Below are positions 22,786-32,065 of a stretch of 64,000 bases of DNA, one piece after another. The stretch covers positions 8,838-72,837 of the forward strand of contig NZ_QXEV01000006.1 in the NCBI RefSeq assembly GCF_003550015.1, read 5' to 3'. This stretch comes from Anaeroplasma bactoclasticum (GTDB taxonomy: Bacteria; Bacillota_I; Bacilli_A; Acholeplasmatales; Anaeroplasmataceae). Position 1 is the first letter of the stretch, and the number at the start of each line of letters is the position of its first letter. Made by a program: the position numbers and the translations under genes. The notes under the pieces were generated by a model that was given only the letters and a program-made list of their open reading frames with translations, made no database searches and was not told where the DNA came from.

Positions 22786-22810
22786 TCATTTATTACTTTT
22801 TTATTATCAT

Positions 22811-22961
22811 ATTATTTAATTACTTTTAATTTCAGGTTATAATTTAATAAATAATACGATAGAAAGAAGATGAATAATATGTCAGTAACCCTAAACCAAG
22901 GATTAAGGAATTACCAAGAGGCAGTTACACACAAAATAGGTTCTTTAAATGTCACAATTAA
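22811..22961 (+). repeat. 151-bp direct repeat, copy 1 (Rhs promoter and gene start)
   Basis: This covers the -10 TATAAT (22838-22843), the leader and the first 30 codons of the Rhs gene. It is repeated at 30182-30332 with one mismatch (22953 C versus 30324 T). Confidence 0.95.
22838..22843 (+). promoter_or_regulatory. -10 element of the Rhs gene
   Basis: TATAAT 27 bases before the start codon; the -35 region is only A/T-rich. The same sequence stands before the orphan Rhs tip (30209-30214), and a relative (29003-29008) stands before the gene at 29034. Confidence 0.55.
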
Positions 22962-25900
22962 CTTATGTCCATCTGCTTCAAATATTCTAATACAAATACC
23001 CACATTGAATACTATTGGTGTACATATTATGTCACCAATTCTTATCTATAATTATCAATTAAGAAGTAGTGGTGGAGTATTTTGGGGAACTAAATTAAAT
23101 TACTTCCCAACACTATATAAGAATGGGAATGATTTTTATATTCATAATCCAGATGGAATGATAGATCATTATTCTGGATATAATAATATGAATTTAGAAA
23201 CAGATTCTTATATATCCTATACATACCCTGGAAGAGATTTATATACATTAATCGATAAATATGGAAATAAAATAGAATATTTAGAATGTAATTATAGCCT
23301 TCCATATAGAATTCTTTATAAGAATGGTATGACTATCAATATTCAATCATCTTCAAATATTCCAATGAAAATAGATAATGTATGTGGAGATGAAATATAC
23401 TTTTCTTATAATGGGTCTTATATAACAAATTTAATCTATTATAAAAATAATGTAATAAAATATAAGACATATCTTTCATATACAAATAATAAACTATCTG
23501 GTGTAGAAACTAAAGTAGTAGATAATAATATAGAAACCACTATAGAATACTATACTATTACAGAATCAACAAACTCTTTAGTAGTAAAAGATGAAATAAT
23601 GAATTATAGTTATACTTATACACTTAATAATGATAATCAAGTAATATCTTTTTGTGATTCATATTATCCAACAAATATTACTTCATTATCCTATAGTGAT
23701 ACTATAGCAACAATTACAGATATCTTTGGTAAAACAATCAAATACTATTTCAGTAATGGCTTACCGACATTTATTTAGATTCTTTAGGATATATAAATGA
23801 AAAATGTTATGATTATATAACAAAAAGAATTAAAGAAGAAAATAGATATCCTTATCTTTATCCAAAACCTAATTTATTACAAGTAGATTTGAGTGGATTT
23901 ACAGAGTCTAACGATATAAGTAGATATTCTTACACAGAAACAGATTCAAATTATGATTTTATAACTAATAAGTATAAACTTGAAGGAATTGATGGTTATG
24001 AAATGTACACATTTCCTCTAAATGGTAAGTACTTAGATACAATACAGTTTATATTTTATACAAAGGTATTAAATGGTGGATATGAGAATAAATTTAATGC
24101 AGCCTTATCTTTAGGAGGAAAGCTTCATGCAAGAAGTATTGATTTAAATTATAATGAAGGATATCAAATGATATCAATAGAGGTTGTGGCAGATGAAACC
24201 TTTACATATGTGACACTAGCTTTTTATTTAAAAAATGTAGAAGCTATAGTTGGTAGCCTTTCTGTAATAAAGAATACAGGAGTAAAAACCTATACATATA
24301 CAGATTCTAATTTAACAAATTATGATTCTAAATATCTAAAAAGAGATATGAGTTATGATAATAATTTGGTAGAAAGTAGTATAGGTACAAATCTACCATC
24401 TACCAATTATAGATATGATGGTAGAAATAACATCATAAAAGAAGAAAAACCATATTTATTAGATATAAATAATACATATACACCATCAAATCAATTATTA
24501 ACAAAAGAATTACTAGGTAATAATTCTAATAAAATAAAAGAAGAATGTATATATGATACAAATCATTTCTTACATAAGAAAAAAGATTCATTATTAAAAG
24601 AAACTACATATACCTATGATTCTTTATTAAATATATTATCTATAACTAAAACAAATAAAACAATTACTTATGGATATAATACAAAGAATATGATTTCAAG
24701 TGTATCCATTTCAAATGGAAACACATATAGTTTTATTTATGATATAAAAGATAATTTGGATAGTATATCTATTAATAATGAAACAATAGGTTCTTATTCT
24801 TATGATTCTTATGGAAGAATAGCATCTTCCTCTTATGGATTTTCATTTATATATGATGTAGATAAGCTAACTTCTATAAAATATAATAATTCTACTATTT
24901 ATTCTATTGAATATGATACAAAGGATAGAATAGAAGAAATCAAAGATTTATATAATAATACATTAGAAGAATATATTTATGATGATGAAGATAAGTTAGA
25001 AGAAAAGAATATAAGAGACTTAAATGCAAGATATGATTATTCAGATTCTTTAGTAGGAGATATCTTATATACTTTAGGAAATCACAAGGAATATCATTCT
25101 TATAATTCTATTCAAAAATCTTTTAATACGTCAAAAGAAGCTATCTTACATCAATTTGAAAAAGAAGGATATGTAGGAGAATATAGAGAAAACTATAAGC
25201 TTAAATATAAAAATGATTTAAAACTACCTAATTACACTTTTACATTTGAAAGATTTGAAGATAATTATATTCCTTAAATAATGCCAACGGATACGTTATC
25301 ATATACATCAAGTGATAAGATAATGATAGGATTCTGGTTTAAGCAAGAAGAATCAAGTTTTTCACATTTACTGACTATAAATCAAAATAATGTATATATC
25401 GGAGTATTTCTTGACTTAATGGATCGTCTACATTTAATAATAGAATATAATAGTCATCCAGAGGATAATATAAACGTATGGATGAATAAAACAGTTATAA
25501 GCAATTCTTGGTATTATTTCGGATTAGAGTATTATGATGATGGAAATGAAAGAAAGCTTTTATTTGAATTAAATGATGAAATAATAGAAGGTCCTCTTAG
25601 TGCTCCTATAACTACACCAGTTACTTATCATATTGGATATAAATACTATGAAGGTGTAAAAACTGAGGTTTTCCAGGGAGGAATATCCAATTTAATGCTT
25701 GGTAAAGATGACGTAGATGAAGGATATATTTATTCTTATTATTTATATACAAAGAATTATATTTATAATCGCAGATTTGAAAACTTCCAAAGTAAACCAT
25801 ATGTATCTACAAATACATATATGGATTTAAATATGGATTATGATTTGATTCCACTAGAGAATAATTTAAAATCTATAAATGGAATTATGCCTGTTCGATT

Positions 25901-28037
25901 TGATGTAAATCAAGATTTAATGTATGACGCAGCTAAGAATTTTATTTATACTGACTATTATGAAAGATATTGTTATTTAGCTTATGGTAATAAGCTCGTA
26001 TATGATTTTAATTTTCGAAATAACGGAACAGTATTCTTTAAGGGCGTTATACTTGAAGATAAGGATACTCAGTATTTTTTAACAATTAAAAATGAATTTG
26101 GTTTAAGTATCTCTATTTATAGAAATCAGAATAAGCATATTATATTAAAGTATGATTATTATACGTTTGATACAGGGTATATCCAAAGTCTAGGTTCTTT
26201 TACAATGGGATTATCCTATAATGAGGTAGTAAATAATAATACAAGAAGTATAACCGTATTTTACAACAATAGTACATTTACACGCTCTTTACCGCTTTCG
26301 ACTTCATTTACAAATACTAAAGTATATTTAGGAACAGATAGTAATGGTAATAATGCCTTAATGGGAATGATTATGGATGTAGCATATAAAAAGGAATATG
26401 TAACATCAATTCCATCTTCTATTTCTACTTTAGAAGAATATCATAAGAACTATTATTATGATTCCTTTGGAAGAATGGAACAAAAAAGAATATTTAATAA
26501 TTCCATAGGAATATTAAGACATACTTATTCTTATAAGAATAGAAGTAGTGATAATACCTATACATCCTTACAAGTAAATAAGGAAACTATAAAGATTTTT
26601 AATGTTTATCATGAAAGAAATTATAGTCTAGATTCCTTAGGAAGAGTAACATCAATTACAGATTCAACATTTGGTAATCATAGTTATTCATATAATGCAT
26701 TGGGATATTTATCATCAGATGATAATAAATCATTAACTTATGATAATAATGGTAATATATTATCTTATGGAACAAATACATATATCTATGATAATATATC
26801 TAGATTAGTATCATATAATAATAATTCAATCACATATGATACTACTCATCCATTCTTAATGAAAACATTTAATGGTTATACTTACTTCTATCAGGGTAAG
26901 AGATTAGTAACAGCTACTAAAAATAATAAGACTATTAATTTCACCCATGATTTAGAAGGCTTAATCATAAAAAAAGAAGTTGTAGAAAATAATACTACAA
27001 CTACTACAAATTATTATTATGATAATAGAAGACTAGTAAAGGAAGTTAAAGGTAATGATGTAATTAGTTATTTCTATGACAATAATAATCAATTATATGG
27101 ATATAAAGAAAATAATACTGTATACTTCTATATAAGAGATGTATTAGGTAATATTATAGGTATTTTAAGTAAAAGTGGTGTATTAGTATCTAAATTTGAT
27201 TATGATGCCTTTGGTAACATCATAAATCAAACAGGAACAGTAATTTCTAATTTTAGATATAAAGGCTATTATTATGATACAGATTTAGAATTATATTATT
27301 TAAAATCTAGATTCTATAATCCTGTATTATTAAGATTTATTACACCAGATTCTATAGAATACCTAGATTCATCTAGTATTATTGGATTAAACCTATATGC
27401 ATATTGTGGTAATGATCCAGTGATGTATGTGGACGGAGACGGAACGTTTGCAATTACAGCTACTGCACTTTTAATTGGTGGTCTTATTGCTGGTGGTATT
27501 GGTGCAGGAATAGGTTTAGGCACTGCGATATATAAAGATTATAAAGAAGATGGGATTTTCTTTAATGGCGATTGGACTGATTATCTTGGCCGTACTCTAG
27601 GAGGTTTTGTTACAGGCTTTGGTATTGGTGTCGCAACTGTTCTTGGAGCTGGAGTAGGTGCGGCTGCTCTGGGAGGAACTACAGCTAGTTTATTTTCTTC
27701 GACCGGTCTATCACTATCTATGGGTAGTGCGGTTGGCATCGGAAGTGGATTTGCTTTTGCAACTGGTATGGCAGGATATACTACACGTGCACTAATTAGT
27801 AGAAGTGAATCGTATAGTGTTTGTAATATGTTCTTAGAGGGCGGTATGAATGCAGTAAGTGGTGCTTTATCTGTTCTCGGGGGAGCACTTGGAGGTTATG
27901 CTGGAGTTCATAATACAGTGTTTACTAGATTACTTTCACAAAAAGGTGATTTATTATATAGAATACTTATTGAAAATATGTTTACTGTAGGATTTAAAAT
28001 ATCTTTAGCTGTTTTGAAAGCATTAATTGAGGGGTAA
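22870..28037 (+). pseudogene. Rhs/YD-repeat polymorphic toxin, broken by one frameshift and one stop
   Basis: Three open segments form one ancestral gene of about 1720 codons. Segment 1 (22870-23778) starts MNNMSVTLNQ and has no signal peptide. Near 23769-23777 the frame shifts by one base; the peptide continues as LDSLGYINEKCYDY into segment 2 (to 25277). There an in-frame TAA (25275-25277) stops it, and segment 3 (25281-28037) continues in the same frame. Segment 3 begins with a concanavalin-like (LamG-type) domain, then YD repeats such as YDSFGRM, YNALGYL and YDNNGNI. The Rhs core end, RFYNPVLLRFITPDS...NLYAYCGNDP, precedes the variable tip. The tip (from about 27442, 198 residues) is Gly/Ala-rich and hydrophobic, as in membrane-inserting pretoxin regions. 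The start could also be 22879. If the breaks are real, the toxin is inactive. Confidence 0.85.
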
Positions 28038-28040
28038 ATA

Positions 28041-28463
28041 ATGAAACGTTATAGGTTTGATTCTATTATAAAAGGAACTTTTAATATGATTGGATGTATA
28101 TTATTTATTGTTCCTTCCATTTATTTTGTTTTAACGCTTTCAATTGATAAGTCATTTAATTTTCATGCACTAGTTTTAGCGGGAAGCGGTATTATAGTGA
28201 TAGTTATTGGATTTCTAACACGAATATTGTTACGAAAAACTAAATACTGTGTTAGATTTGCTGAAGGAAGTATATTTTATAGTAATAAGCATTTTTATAA
28301 TTTTAGTCTCAAATATGTTAAGTTTTATATATCTATTATTGAGCCATCTCTAGTTATTCCAAAATTATATATTAATGATGGTGCAAAAAGTTTAGTTGTT
28401 TATTTAACAAAAAAAGATGTTAAAAAATTGATTGCTGAAAATTATGAGATTAAGATCATATAA
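28041..28463 (+). CDS. Two-TM protein, candidate immunity partner of the first Rhs tip
   Basis: 140 residues, ATG 28041, three bases after the Rhs stop and behind GAGGGG. Two spans at about 12-33 and 44-64 are followed by a 75-residue soluble domain. No family is recognised. The position immediately behind an Rhs variable tip is where immunity genes lie, and a membrane location would suit a membrane-active tip; this is inference from context only. Confidence 0.6.
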   Translation: MKRYRFDSIIKGTFNMIGCILFIVPSIYFVLTLSIDKSFNFHALVLAGSGIIVIVIGFLTRILLRKTKYCVRFAEGSIFYSNKHFYNFSLKYVKFYISIIEPSLVIPKLYINDGAKSLVVYLTKKDVKKLIAENYEIKII

Positions 28464-28486
28464 ACAGTAATGTTTTAGGTAATAAT

Positions 28487-28744
28487 ATGAACAATATCCA
28501 ACAACGATTAACTAATATTTTTCAAGAATATGGTATATCTAATTATGAGATTGAATAGTATCCTAAGATTTTTGGCAATATTGTTTGTTCATTTGAGTAC
28601 AAAGGGCAAAAATACAATTTTATAAATGATAGAGGAGAAATAATACTTAATCACAAATATATTGATGATATAAAGAATTATAATTCTAAAATGTTACCAA
28701 TTGACGTTTTAGAAAAAATGATTATTGAAATATTAGAAAAATAA
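28487..28744 (+). pseudogene. Small gene with in-frame TAG, possible immunity relic
   Basis: ATG 28487 opens 23 codons (MNNIQQRLTNIFQEYGISNY...) to a TAG at 28556-28558. The same frame continues for 61 more codons (YPKIFGNIVCSFEYKG...EKMIIEILEK) to TAA at 28742-28744. The two halves read as one soluble protein of about 85 residues. Small soluble proteins behind Rhs tips are often extra immunity genes. Either a pseudogene or a sequencing error; no family recognised. Confidence 0.6.
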
Positions 28745-28754
28745 CAATTGTATT

Positions 28755-28792
28755 AAGGTATAGGAAAAGGAAATTTTTTTATACCTTTTTTC
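28755..28792 (+). terminator. Terminator closing the first Rhs unit
   Basis: Stem AAGGTATA/TATACCTT with a 17-base loop, followed by TTTTTTC. The rest of 28793-28990 is A/T-rich with nothing recognisable. Confidence 0.65.
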
Positions 28793-29002
28793 TTTGGTTT
28801 TACATTACACTTGTATTAACTAAGGAATATAGAACGATTTCTATGTTTCTTTTTTAATATTATTTACAATTCTAATGAGTCACTAAAGTATATCATTAAT
28901 GGATTTCATGAAATATAAGTCAAGAATTGTTTTAATGATTTATTATTTCAATTTTAAGCCATAATTCATCCTCATAATCTTTTATTGCTTTCTATTTAAG
29001 GT

Positions 29003-29008
29003 TATAAT
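29003..29008 (+). promoter_or_regulatory. -10 element sharing the Rhs 5' module
   Basis: TATAAT inside AGGTTATAATTAAATAAATA, close to the Rhs AGGTTATAATTTAATAAATA; GAAAGAAGATGAAT also follows in both. Confidence 0.5.
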
Positions 29009-29033
29009 TAAATAAATACATGGTGGAAAGAAG

Positions 29034-30134
29034 ATGAATGCTATGAATGCAAGGGATTTATTTGAAAAATACAATAAAAAAAGTGATGAGAAATTAGGCT
29101 TATTATTAAAATATAATACAGATAAGTTTATTTCATATTTCAATAGATTTATAGAAAAAGAATTCATTACTATGCCAAAGGTATATCAAATGATAAATAT
29201 TCTTACGATTAGATTTATTAATATTATTGATGACCATGAATATGATGTATTTAGGGATTTCTTAACATCCTTTAATATAGAACCATGTAGTGAAAAGGAA
29301 TATTTAGATACATATGATATACTTTTAACAAGTGATGATGACTTAATGGAAAAAGTAGAGAATATGTTTAAATCCTATTTTCAGTTTTATTATGAGAGTG
29401 TAAAAAGATTAGATTTTGATTTAAATGTATTGGTAGATTTTTGTTTATTGCTTTCTATTAATTATAGCGAGGATAAAGGAAGAGGCTTCTTAGATAGTGA
29501 TACATTAAATTTCTTTGAATTTATGGTAGAAGAATTAAATGATGAATATGACTTAAATCGTTATATGATTTATGATGAAGAGGATTTAAACCAATTTGGT
29601 AAAGTATGTAAAGACTTTATCCAAATGGATGATTTCTTTATGCTAAGAACGATTACTTTAGGTCATATAGATAATTATAAATTAAAGAGATTTAATGGAG
29701 AAATTACAATTAAAAATGAATTTGGCATATTCTTTGATGATAAGGCATATAAGGTTAATGTTACTGTAGGTGTACTTAAGGAATCTGAATACACCATGAA
29801 AGACATTGAAGATTATATAGGGCAACTACCAGAAGAACTTACAAATAGAATTGCAGTAGATGGTAAAACCATTGATGAATTTACAAAAAGATATCACTAT
29901 ATTATTAATCCAGATTATATAGATGATATTGAAGTAGAAGATGAATATGTAACTGTATATTTTAATAAAGAACAAGGTTTTAAATTAGAAGAACCTGTAA
30001 GTAAAACATTCTTTGAAATAGGCCTACTTTATGTATATAATGCCTATGAGGATGATAATGGTGATTTATTCTTTGATTGTGATAAGGATAATCAAGAAAA
30101 AGCAATCCACCTATATAACAAACTACATGAATAA
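29034..30134 (+). CDS. Hypothetical acidic soluble protein inside the Rhs locus
   Basis: 366 residues; ATG 29034 or 29043. It has no signal peptide or span and is rich in Asp/Glu/Tyr/Phe. It is probably alpha-helical in the first 200 residues (for example FEFMVEELNDEYDLNRY), then mixed, with a run GEITIKNEFGIFFDDKAYKVNVTV. I recognise no family. Its promoter and leader resemble those of the Rhs gene, and it lies between the two Rhs units, so it is probably locus cargo (accessory, immunity or chaperone). It has its own terminator. Confidence 0.7.
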   Translation: MNAMNARDLFEKYNKKSDEKLGLLLKYNTDKFISYFNRFIEKEFITMPKVYQMINILTIRFINIIDDHEYDVFRDFLTSFNIEPCSEKEYLDTYDILLTSDDDLMEKVENMFKSYFQFYYESVKRLDFDLNVLVDFCLLLSINYSEDKGRGFLDSDTLNFFEFMVEELNDEYDLNRYMIYDEEDLNQFGKVCKDFIQMDDFFMLRTITLGHIDNYKLKRFNGEITIKNEFGIFFDDKAYKVNVTVGVLKESEYTMKDIEDYIGQLPEELTNRIAVDGKTIDEFTKRYHYIINPDYIDDIEVEDEYVTVYFNKEQGFKLEEPVSKTFFEIGLLYVYNAYEDDNGDLFFDCDKDNQEKAIHLYNKLHE

Positions 30135-30141
30135 TATATTT

Positions 30142-30168
30142 AATCTCCTTTATTGGAGATTTTTTATA
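30142..30168 (+). terminator. Terminator after the 366-residue protein gene
   Basis: Stem AATCTCC/GGAGATT, loop TTTATT, then TTTTTATATT. Confidence 0.85.
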
Positions 30169-30181
30169 TTTTTACTCCTCA

Positions 30182-30332
30182 ATTATTTAATTACTTTTAA
30201 TTTCAGGTTATAATTTAATAAATAATACGATAGAAAGAAGATGAATAATATGTCAGTAACCCTAAACCAAGGATTAAGGAATTACCAAGAGGCAGTTACA
30301 CACAAAATAGGTTCTTTAAATGTTACAATTAA
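30182..30332 (+). repeat. 151-bp direct repeat, copy 2 (duplicated Rhs start)
   Basis: 150 of 151 bases match 22811-22961. The identity stops abruptly at 30333, where sequence homologous to the far 3' part of the Rhs gene begins. Confidence 0.95.
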
Positions 30333-30348
30333 TCTAATAGAAAGTTAA
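30241..30348 (+). pseudogene. Truncated Rhs N-terminus (35 codons)
   Basis: ATG 30241 repeats the first codons of the long Rhs gene (MNNMSVTLNQGL...) and then runs out of frame into the tip sequence, ending IES and TAA (30346-30348). The join deletes about 4 kb of Rhs core relative to the full gene. Confidence 0.85.
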
Positions 30349-31229
30349 TAAAGGAAGTATGTGGTAACACAACAATTAGCTATTTCTATGATAATAATAA
30401 TCAATTATATGGATATAAGGAGAATAATACTGTATACTTTTATATAAGGGATATCTTAGGTAATATCATAGGAATAATGGATGATAATGGAACATTATTA
30501 TCTAAGTTTGATTATGATTCTTTCGGTAACATCATAAATCAAACTGGAACAATAATATCTAATTTTAGATATAAAGGATATTATTATGATACAGATATAG
30601 AATTATATTATCTAAAGAGTAGATTCTATAATCCTGTATTATTAAGATTTATTACACCAGATTCTATAGAATACCTAGATTCATCTAGTATTATTGGATT
30701 AAATCTATATGCATATTGTGGTAATGATCCTATAAATAGGGTAGATGAGAATGGAAACTGGTGGATTCTAGCATTTATAATCGCTGTTGCTGTAGTTGCT
30801 ACAATAAATGATGTTTGTAAACTAGTAGCTGGCAAAGTAAAAGCTACAAGTACTGGCGGCAATGTACAAATTGTAAATTCATCCGAAATTCACACTCCAT
30901 GGGTTCGGTTGGGGTACTCATTTTATTTGAATCATATAAATCCTGATACACGTGATGTCATACAAGGGACTTCGTTTGGTATGGAATTTGAATGGTTTGC
31001 TCATAATGTGGCATATACAGGATTAAGTATTTTAGAATACGTTGGTGTTGACTCAGTTTTCGGAAAAACTGTTGAAAGTTTAAAAAATGAGGCTCAAACT
31101 GTTGATTTTGGACCTACAATTTATAATGATACTCATGACTGGTTTTCGTTTGAAATGGAACGGGCATATACTGCTTCAAATCCTCTTTTTGCACTGATTG
31201 ATTTTTGGATATGGGGGTTTTGTTATTGA
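30333..31229 (+). pseudogene. Orphan Rhs C-terminal tip with a second toxin domain
   Basis: The frame opens at 30333 without a start codon; the first ATG is at 30477. Residues encoded to about 30757 match the end of the long Rhs gene closely, through RFYNPVLLRFITPDS and YAYCGNDP. From PINRVDENG on, the 157-residue tip is unrelated to the first one. It has a hydrophobic stretch (WWILAFIIAVAVVATI), then a soluble domain with EFEWFAHNVAYTGLSI and FGPTIYNDTHDWFSFEMERAY. No nuclease or other motif is recognised. This is the typical displaced orphan tip of Rhs loci, silent unless recombined onto a full core. Confidence 0.8.
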
Positions 31230-32065
31230 GTAGAAAAAAAAAGTTTTTAATAATTTTCTTTAGTATTCTTTCGATACTTGTTTTATACTTTACTACAATC
31301 ATCATAGTTGGTGTTATAATTGAGAATAGTCAAAATGAAATTATTGAAAAATACTTATCATCTATTCCCAATGATAATCATTTTATATATAAATATTTTG
31401 ATTCATCAATAATATATGAAAATGAATATTTAAATTTAGAAAAATACATTGATAAAAAGGATATATATGTAGAATATGTAAATGAGAATTATTTAATATA
31501 TTCCAAAAGGAAATCTCATACGTATTCTTATTATGTAATTGATAGTGATGGAAACTCATATTTCTTGTTTAAAAAAGATGAACGAGTACGATGGAATTAT
31601 TATAATGAAGGAAATTTCTATATTGAAGGGCAAAATGAATTTTATAGTTATGACATTAACCAAAATGATTTAATTACCATTACTTATGATGAGTATTTTT
31701 CTGCCAATGATAATAAGTATCAAGCAGTTCAATATGATAAAAAACAATTAAAAATTACTGATGTAGATAATGGATTATATAAGTATTTTTCTTTAGATCA
31801 TTATCAACAAAATGATATTATAGAAAAATTATTGGGTCTTCAGAAAAAATTGGAAATGCATAATTTTTTAGTTGTTGGAGAGGATATTTATATACTAGTT
31901 TATGTTAACTATACTTATGCAGTTGTAATTAAATATGATTTTCAAATGGAAACAATTTCTTTTGTTGATAAAATTATAAACGGCTACAAAGATGACAAAA
32001 CGATAATGTTTTATCTTGAAAATCAAAAATGTTATCCTTTAGATGCTATAATTTCTAAAAAGTAA
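31226..32065 (+). CDS. Membrane-anchored protein, candidate immunity partner of the orphan tip
   Basis: 279 residues with TTG start 31226, whose bases overlap the TGA of the orphan tip (TTGA); GGGGG lies eight bases ahead. ATG 31211 is an alternative with a poorer ribosome site. One N-terminal span (about 8-30, FLIIFFSILSILVLYFTTII) is followed by an external domain of about 250 residues rich in Tyr/Asp/Asn. Stop-start overlap with an Rhs tip is the usual toxin-immunity arrangement. No family recognised. Confidence 0.62.
   Translation: MSRKKKFLIIFFSILSILVLYFTTIIIVGVIIENSQNEIIEKYLSSIPNDNHFIYKYFDSSIIYENEYLNLEKYIDKKDIYVEYVNENYLIYSKRKSHTYSYYVIDSDGNSYFLFKKDERVRWNYYNEGNFYIEGQNEFYSYDINQNDLITITYDEYFSANDNKYQAVQYDKKQLKITDVDNGLYKYFSLDHYQQNDIIEKLLGLQKKLEMHNFLVVGEDIYILVYVNYTYAVVIKYDFQMETISFVDKIINGYKDDKTIMFYLENQKCYPLDAIISKK

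Follow-up and report, generated by a model that had tools for sequence, protein, structure and literature searches.

The window analysed here is a stretch of 64,000 nucleotides of Anaeroplasma bactoclasticum, and all positions without a contig name are counted from its first letter. Between 22811 and 32065 it holds a main Rhs gene with its tip and presumed immunity gene, a further gene behind an Rhs-like promoter, and a shortened second Rhs copy (the stub), in which an Rhs promoter and start precede a core end, an orphan tip and a partner gene:

22811..22869, + strand: promoter region of the main Rhs gene (TATAAT at 22838-22843, RBS-like GAAAGAAG)
22870..28037, + strand: main Rhs gene, broken into the frames 22870-23778, 23775-25277 and 25278-28037 (TIGR03696, E=5e-20)
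27438..28037, + strand: tip 1 of the main Rhs gene, after the hyperconserved core end (YAYCGNDP, 27398-27421)
28041..28463, + strand: presumed immunity gene 1, a 140-aa membrane-protein-like ORF 3 nt past the tip-1 stop
28969..29033, + strand: Rhs-like promoter copy before gene 29034, with about 80% identity to 22807-22875 and 30176-30246
29034..30134, + strand: gene 29034, a 366-aa ORF of no known family
30142..30161, + strand: terminator-like hairpin between gene 29034 and the stub
30182..30332, + strand: kept Rhs promoter and first 30 codons of the stub (TATAAT at 30209-30214, ATG at 30241)
30241..30348, + strand: start ORF of the stub, 35 aa, with TAA at 30346-30348
30333..30338, + strand: deletion junction of start and core end (the starts compared at AATCTA, the core ends at ATAGAA)
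30336..30740, + strand: Rhs core end of the stub (TIGR03696, E=3e-21), in a frame that differs from the start frame
30741..31229, + strand: tip 2 (orphan tip), without similarity to tip 1
31226..32065, + strand: presumed immunity gene 2 (partner 2), whose TTG start overlaps the tip-2 stop by 4 nt

Both the main gene and the stub lie above the cut-off of 32.5 bits for the RHS-repeat-associated core (TIGR03696). The main gene is disrupted: the reading frame breaks off at 23773-23778 and an in-frame TAA follows at 25275-25277, whereas paralogs on contigs C39 and C53 are open at both sites. Each lesion is at or near the downstream edge of a tract highly identical to a paralog, and the lesions may represent true decay, sloppy recombination or assembly error. 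The original prediction missed this breakage, as well as the repetition of the Rhs start across the genome and the third promoter copy before gene 29034.

The candidate immunity gene 1 encodes a hydrophobic N-terminus. Behind it, at 28488-28742, there is a small interrupted frame with a stop at about 28557, possibly another immunity crumb. Gene 29034 was absent from the 26 other genomes of the genus searched, and it is thus useless for placing the locus. An Rfam scan of the locus gave nothing credible, a mir-9 match far below the cut-off being due to chance. The Rhs N-terminus had no match in a scan of named genomes. EssC (TIGR03928) had no match above cut-off in the genus, and its sub-threshold matches appeared also in the E. 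coli and B. subtilis controls.

Structure of the stub

It had been predicted that the stub opens with a duplicate of the Rhs promoter and first 30 codons, and the alignment bears this out: 22811-22961 and 30182-30332 are identical at 150 of 151 bases (E = 2e-75 against chance). The longest exact run is 142 bases, and the promoter region of the main gene (22811..22869, identical to 30182-30240) lies inside it. These exact 142-bp direct repeats bound a 7.37-kb unit consisting of the main Rhs gene, partner 1 and gene 29034. The two core ends are also repeats of each other (E = 2e-130). They show 90% identity between 27062-27418 and 30374-30730 over 359 aligned columns, or 87% over 396 in a second alignment, and have 84 exact bases in common. 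Start and core end of the stub are therefore unequally diverged from the main gene (99.3% against 87-90%).

About 4.06 kb present in the main gene (22961 to 27023) is absent from the stub between start and core end. Alignment and reading frames together confirm a second part of the prediction, namely that the start was joined out of frame to an Rhs core end with about 4 kb missing. By sequence comparison, start and core end have about 2 nt in common at the junction, which argues for a non-homologous deletion and not for recombination between core ends.

The stub keeps about 31-33 codons of the start, and the start frame stops 0.9 kb ahead of partner 2, so that translational coupling is inapplicable here. 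The frame of core end and tip 2 opens only after the TAA at 30330-30332, with its first ATG at 30477. The tip frame is thus intact but detached from the start. It is open over 162 codons, and partner 2 is open over 279, encoding a 279-aa product with one N-terminal transmembrane-like segment. No Pfam family was found for tip 2 or for the partner genes, immunity gene 1 included.

Downstream of the main rhs gene, then, there is a core-end fragment followed by a tip unlike the main tip, which are the marks of an orphan Rhs-CT. No similarity to tip 1 was found for the tip after YAYCGNDP, as had been claimed, and the orphan tip with its partner gene 3′ of Rhs matches the known orphan-tip arrangement. 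Just upstream of the stub core end stand an Rhs promoter, an RBS-like sequence and an out-of-frame start. Tip 2 has one relative among 55 genomes of the family, at G019:C39 (49% over 86 aa), where G019 is the nearest sampled species; it lies directly after a core end and precedes a gene unrelated to partner 2. Right after this relative and its partner (L040:1555-2021), a second core-end fragment with another tip is found, in the classic orphan form without a start.

Rhs starts in the genome and the genus

The Rhs promoter and start occur at six places of this genome, on contigs C6 (twice; the contig of the window), C4, C21 (twice) and C39. Together with the third promoter copy, this indicates a family of Rhs units and not a single local duplication, and the suggestion that the start of the stub is a local scar of its neighbour's tip swap loses its ground. 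Within codons 1-28, most copies have 75-83 of 84 bases in common, against only 61-64 for the C39 copy and 59-65 for the starts of G019 and of another genome, G022. In most pairs the homology begins about 60 nt 5′ of the ATG, just past the terminator of the preceding gene.

The paralogs are mosaics. For example, identity between the main gene on C6 and the C39 gene is 68-75% over 22887-23245, rises to about 97% over 23306-23665 and drops to 53-80% after 23845; the main gene also has 237 exact bases in common with C21. Sharp tracts of near-identity between Rhs paralogs were seen at 23246-23845 and 24950-25274. Near-identity of starts can thus reflect conversion as well as recency. The original prediction had offered both, and the mosaics speak for conversion, recent spread being possible too. 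At the end of C53, the last 60 bases of the reverse strand carry the sequence after an Rhs tip, which we take to resemble the beginning of a group II intron, although Rfam gave no confirmation of such an intron.

When 27 genomes of the genus were searched, the close start type was found in three, namely this genome (G000), G019 and G022. Five starts are truncated: the window stub, C21:7959 and C4:87559 in this genome, and G019:C13 and G019:C49. C21:7959 keeps about 38 codons in frame with 57 codons of a tip tail, and ends 3 nt before a 212-aa membrane-type ORF. At C4:87559, 86 codons are left, and 3 nt separate the end of the start frame from a membrane-type ORF of 211 aa. At G019:C13, 28 codons are kept out of frame with the core end, which is followed by a tip of 211 aa and then an ORF of 155 aa. 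In G019:C49, about 66-71 codons remain and continue in frame into a homologue of the C21 tip tail, and the start frame overlaps a 209-aa ORF homologous to the 212-aa ORF of C21. In three stubs (C4, C21 and G019:C49), the start frame therefore either enters an immunity-like gene or stops 3-7 nt short of one, and at these three places an immunity gene without a functional effector is present in form. G019:C59 was considered as a sixth truncated start and rejected, as it merely reaches a contig end.

The stubs on C6, C21, G019:C13 and G019:C49 differ in their junctions, flanks and chromosomal sites, so that at least three separate deletions are indicated. All five breakpoints fall at codons 28-87 of about 1,722, for which P is ~3e-7 if breakpoints are uniform and independent, a value that serves as a guide only since it rests on five copies, some possibly related. 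The promoter and an RBS-like sequence are retained in all stubs. For the pair C21 and G019:C49, which does not include the window stub, dN/dS is about 0.21 for the immunity-like gene, a sign of selection on it, but similarly low (0.15) for the tip tail. Immunity-like genes of the C21 type and the C4 type, or their relatives, adjoin each other in G019 and possibly in G006 (L041:3591-4512, L210:983-2553), an arrangement suggesting that two immunity genes may serve a single tip family.

The surroundings of the Rhs copies also differ from those in relatives. In 12 other members of the genus, dxs, usually with a GNAT gene, adjoins ispH without Rhs in between, and the G019:C49 stub occupies this dxs(-GNAT)/ispH site. 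Here, the dxs-GNAT pair on C39 leads into an Rhs gene and ispH follows the window stub; the upstream regions of C39 and G019:C49 align over 1.38 kb. In G019, G010 and G007, yigZ and cca come next to the end of atp-DUF1146, either immediately or with one or two small genes between, and in G022 yigZ comes after two other genes. In this genome, yigZ and cca are found on C14, preceded by Rhs crumbs, and the order on C6 (22480-32250) is atp-DUF1146, the Rhs cluster and ispH. Judged from the gene order of relatives, C6 combines the left flank of one Rhs locus with the right flank of a second, possibly through an Rhs-mediated rearrangement or through misassembly. The GC skew keeps its sign across the join, which speaks against a simple inversion inside one replichore without being decisive.

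Origin and possible role of the stub

The reading we prefer, at a probability of roughly 0.5, is that 30182-32065 is the remnant of a second Rhs unit whose kept start serves expression of the partner (immunity) gene. This unit, once complete and with a promoter of its own, would be one member of the family dispersed in this genome and would have lost about 4 kb by a non-homologous deletion, so that codon 31 was fused out of frame to the core end. Its toxin tip would then no longer be read from the Rhs start, and the toxin would be silenced. Behind the terminator at 30142-30161, promoter and start would persist as a leader for a transcript of tip and partner, and the function retained would be the supply of a membrane-anchored partner (immunity) protein against kin with an active tip. 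The unrelated partner gene of the tip-2 relative in G019 and the 0.9 kb between the start frame and partner 2 count against this reading. As far as can be judged from the DNA, immunity is likely retained at the window stub. It is a more tentative idea, and one on the doubtful side, that in this lineage Rhs genes have been hollowed out again and again and selected in this form, with a leader of 28-87 codons, the toxin silenced or trimmed, and immunity expressed from the Rhs promoter, retired weapons thereby becoming shields.

The stub may instead be functionless debris of a deleted Rhs copy, its start kept by chance or because of deletion hot spots. The broken frame of the main Rhs gene fits such decay, as do the crumbs of core, tip and immunity genes at C14, C4 and G019:C49. 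However, the break falls no later than codon 87 in five out of five truncated starts, all of which retain promoter and RBS-like sequence; the long frames of tip 2 and partner 2 have stayed open; and the immunity-like gene of two other stubs has a low dN/dS. We consider pure decay rather unlikely.

The exact direct repeats could also mark the 7.37-kb unit as a cassette, which either integrated by a single crossover of a circle at an existing stub or can loop out. Circular intermediates have been proposed for Rhs tips (PMC2935791), and the mosaics show that Rhs paralogs recombine. A plain tandem array of Rhs units accounts for the same order, however, and no circle or excision product was seen, which leaves the cassette improbable.

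The original prediction regarded the locus as a snapshot of tip replacement, in which recombination gave the main gene a new tip and displaced the old one, together with part of the gene, to the downstream side. An orphan tip that comes with a core end and a partner gene behind a main Rhs gene is indeed the arrangement described for tip displacement (PMC2935791, PMC3967940), and the exact bases common to both core ends speak for it too. But displacement moves core end and tip only; it neither needs nor creates a promoter and start ahead of the orphan. The unequal divergence of start and core end and the short shared sequence at the junction also stand against it, other stubs in the genus need no adjacent main gene, and the main gene now has a frameshift and a stop. 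The snapshot is upheld only in part, and displacement has little chance of being the origin of this stub.

An error of short-read assembly, by which wrong flanks or a false junction were joined at Rhs repeats, is hardly probable. In its favour, contigs C21, C39 and C53 end inside Rhs sequence, C6 joins atp-DUF1146 to ispH in place of the two separate orders of relatives (atp-DUF1146-yigZ and dxs-GNAT-ispH), and each of the two lesions of the main gene is found at the edge of a paralog-like tract. On the other side, the roughly 2 nt common at the junction make repeat collapse an unlikely source, and independent stubs whose junctions differ occur within contigs both in this genome and in G019.

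Comparison with known orphan modules

Orphan Rhs tip/immunity modules and C-terminal displacement are known from Enterobacteriaceae (Jackson 2009 PMC2935791; Koskiniemi 2014 PMC3967940). The window stub resembles these orphans in its core-end homology, non-homologous tip, adjacent small gene and position downstream of a main Rhs gene. Orphan modules can also bring their tip into use by recombining with the main gene, and on this point the window offers the 84 exact bases common to the core ends. Enterobacterial orphan tips are usually without translation initiation signals (PMC3967940), whereas the window stub has a complete Rhs promoter and start, out of frame, before the orphan, and start truncations recur here at unlinked sites and in another species. 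The orphan Rhs tip is thus of a known kind, and what differs here is the retained promoter and start in front of it. No description of this retained-start form was found in the literature searched.

Orphan cdiA-CT/cdiI modules are likewise mostly without initiation signals, their immunity genes are fit for expression, and it has been suggested that they are kept as an immunity repertoire (Poole 2011 PMC3150448). They share with the stub a presumably untranslated toxin fragment and a putatively expressible immunity gene, but they belong to CDI and not to Rhs, and the start of the parent gene is not retained there. In Vibrio cholerae, T6SS orphan immunity arrays form by insertion of new modules (Kirchberger 2017 PMC5361080). 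Old immunity genes are kept there too, with the effector displaced and 3′ effector remnants left; here, by contrast, the parent unit is hollowed from inside and its 5′ end is kept. Main and orphan rhs of Salmonella act as toxin-antitoxin loci, with promoters inside the core end (PMC7043789). The likeness lies in tip and immunity without the delivery part (expression being proposed here), and the difference in the 5′ Rhs promoter, which is retained here.

If the preferred reading is true, it would provide a simple route from toxin genes to immunity genes without new promoters, complementing tip displacement. The locus would also bear on the dynamics of an Rhs family, with dispersed copies, conversion and possible chromosome rearrangement, in uncultured Mollicutes-like Bacilli, whose Rhs biology has received little study.
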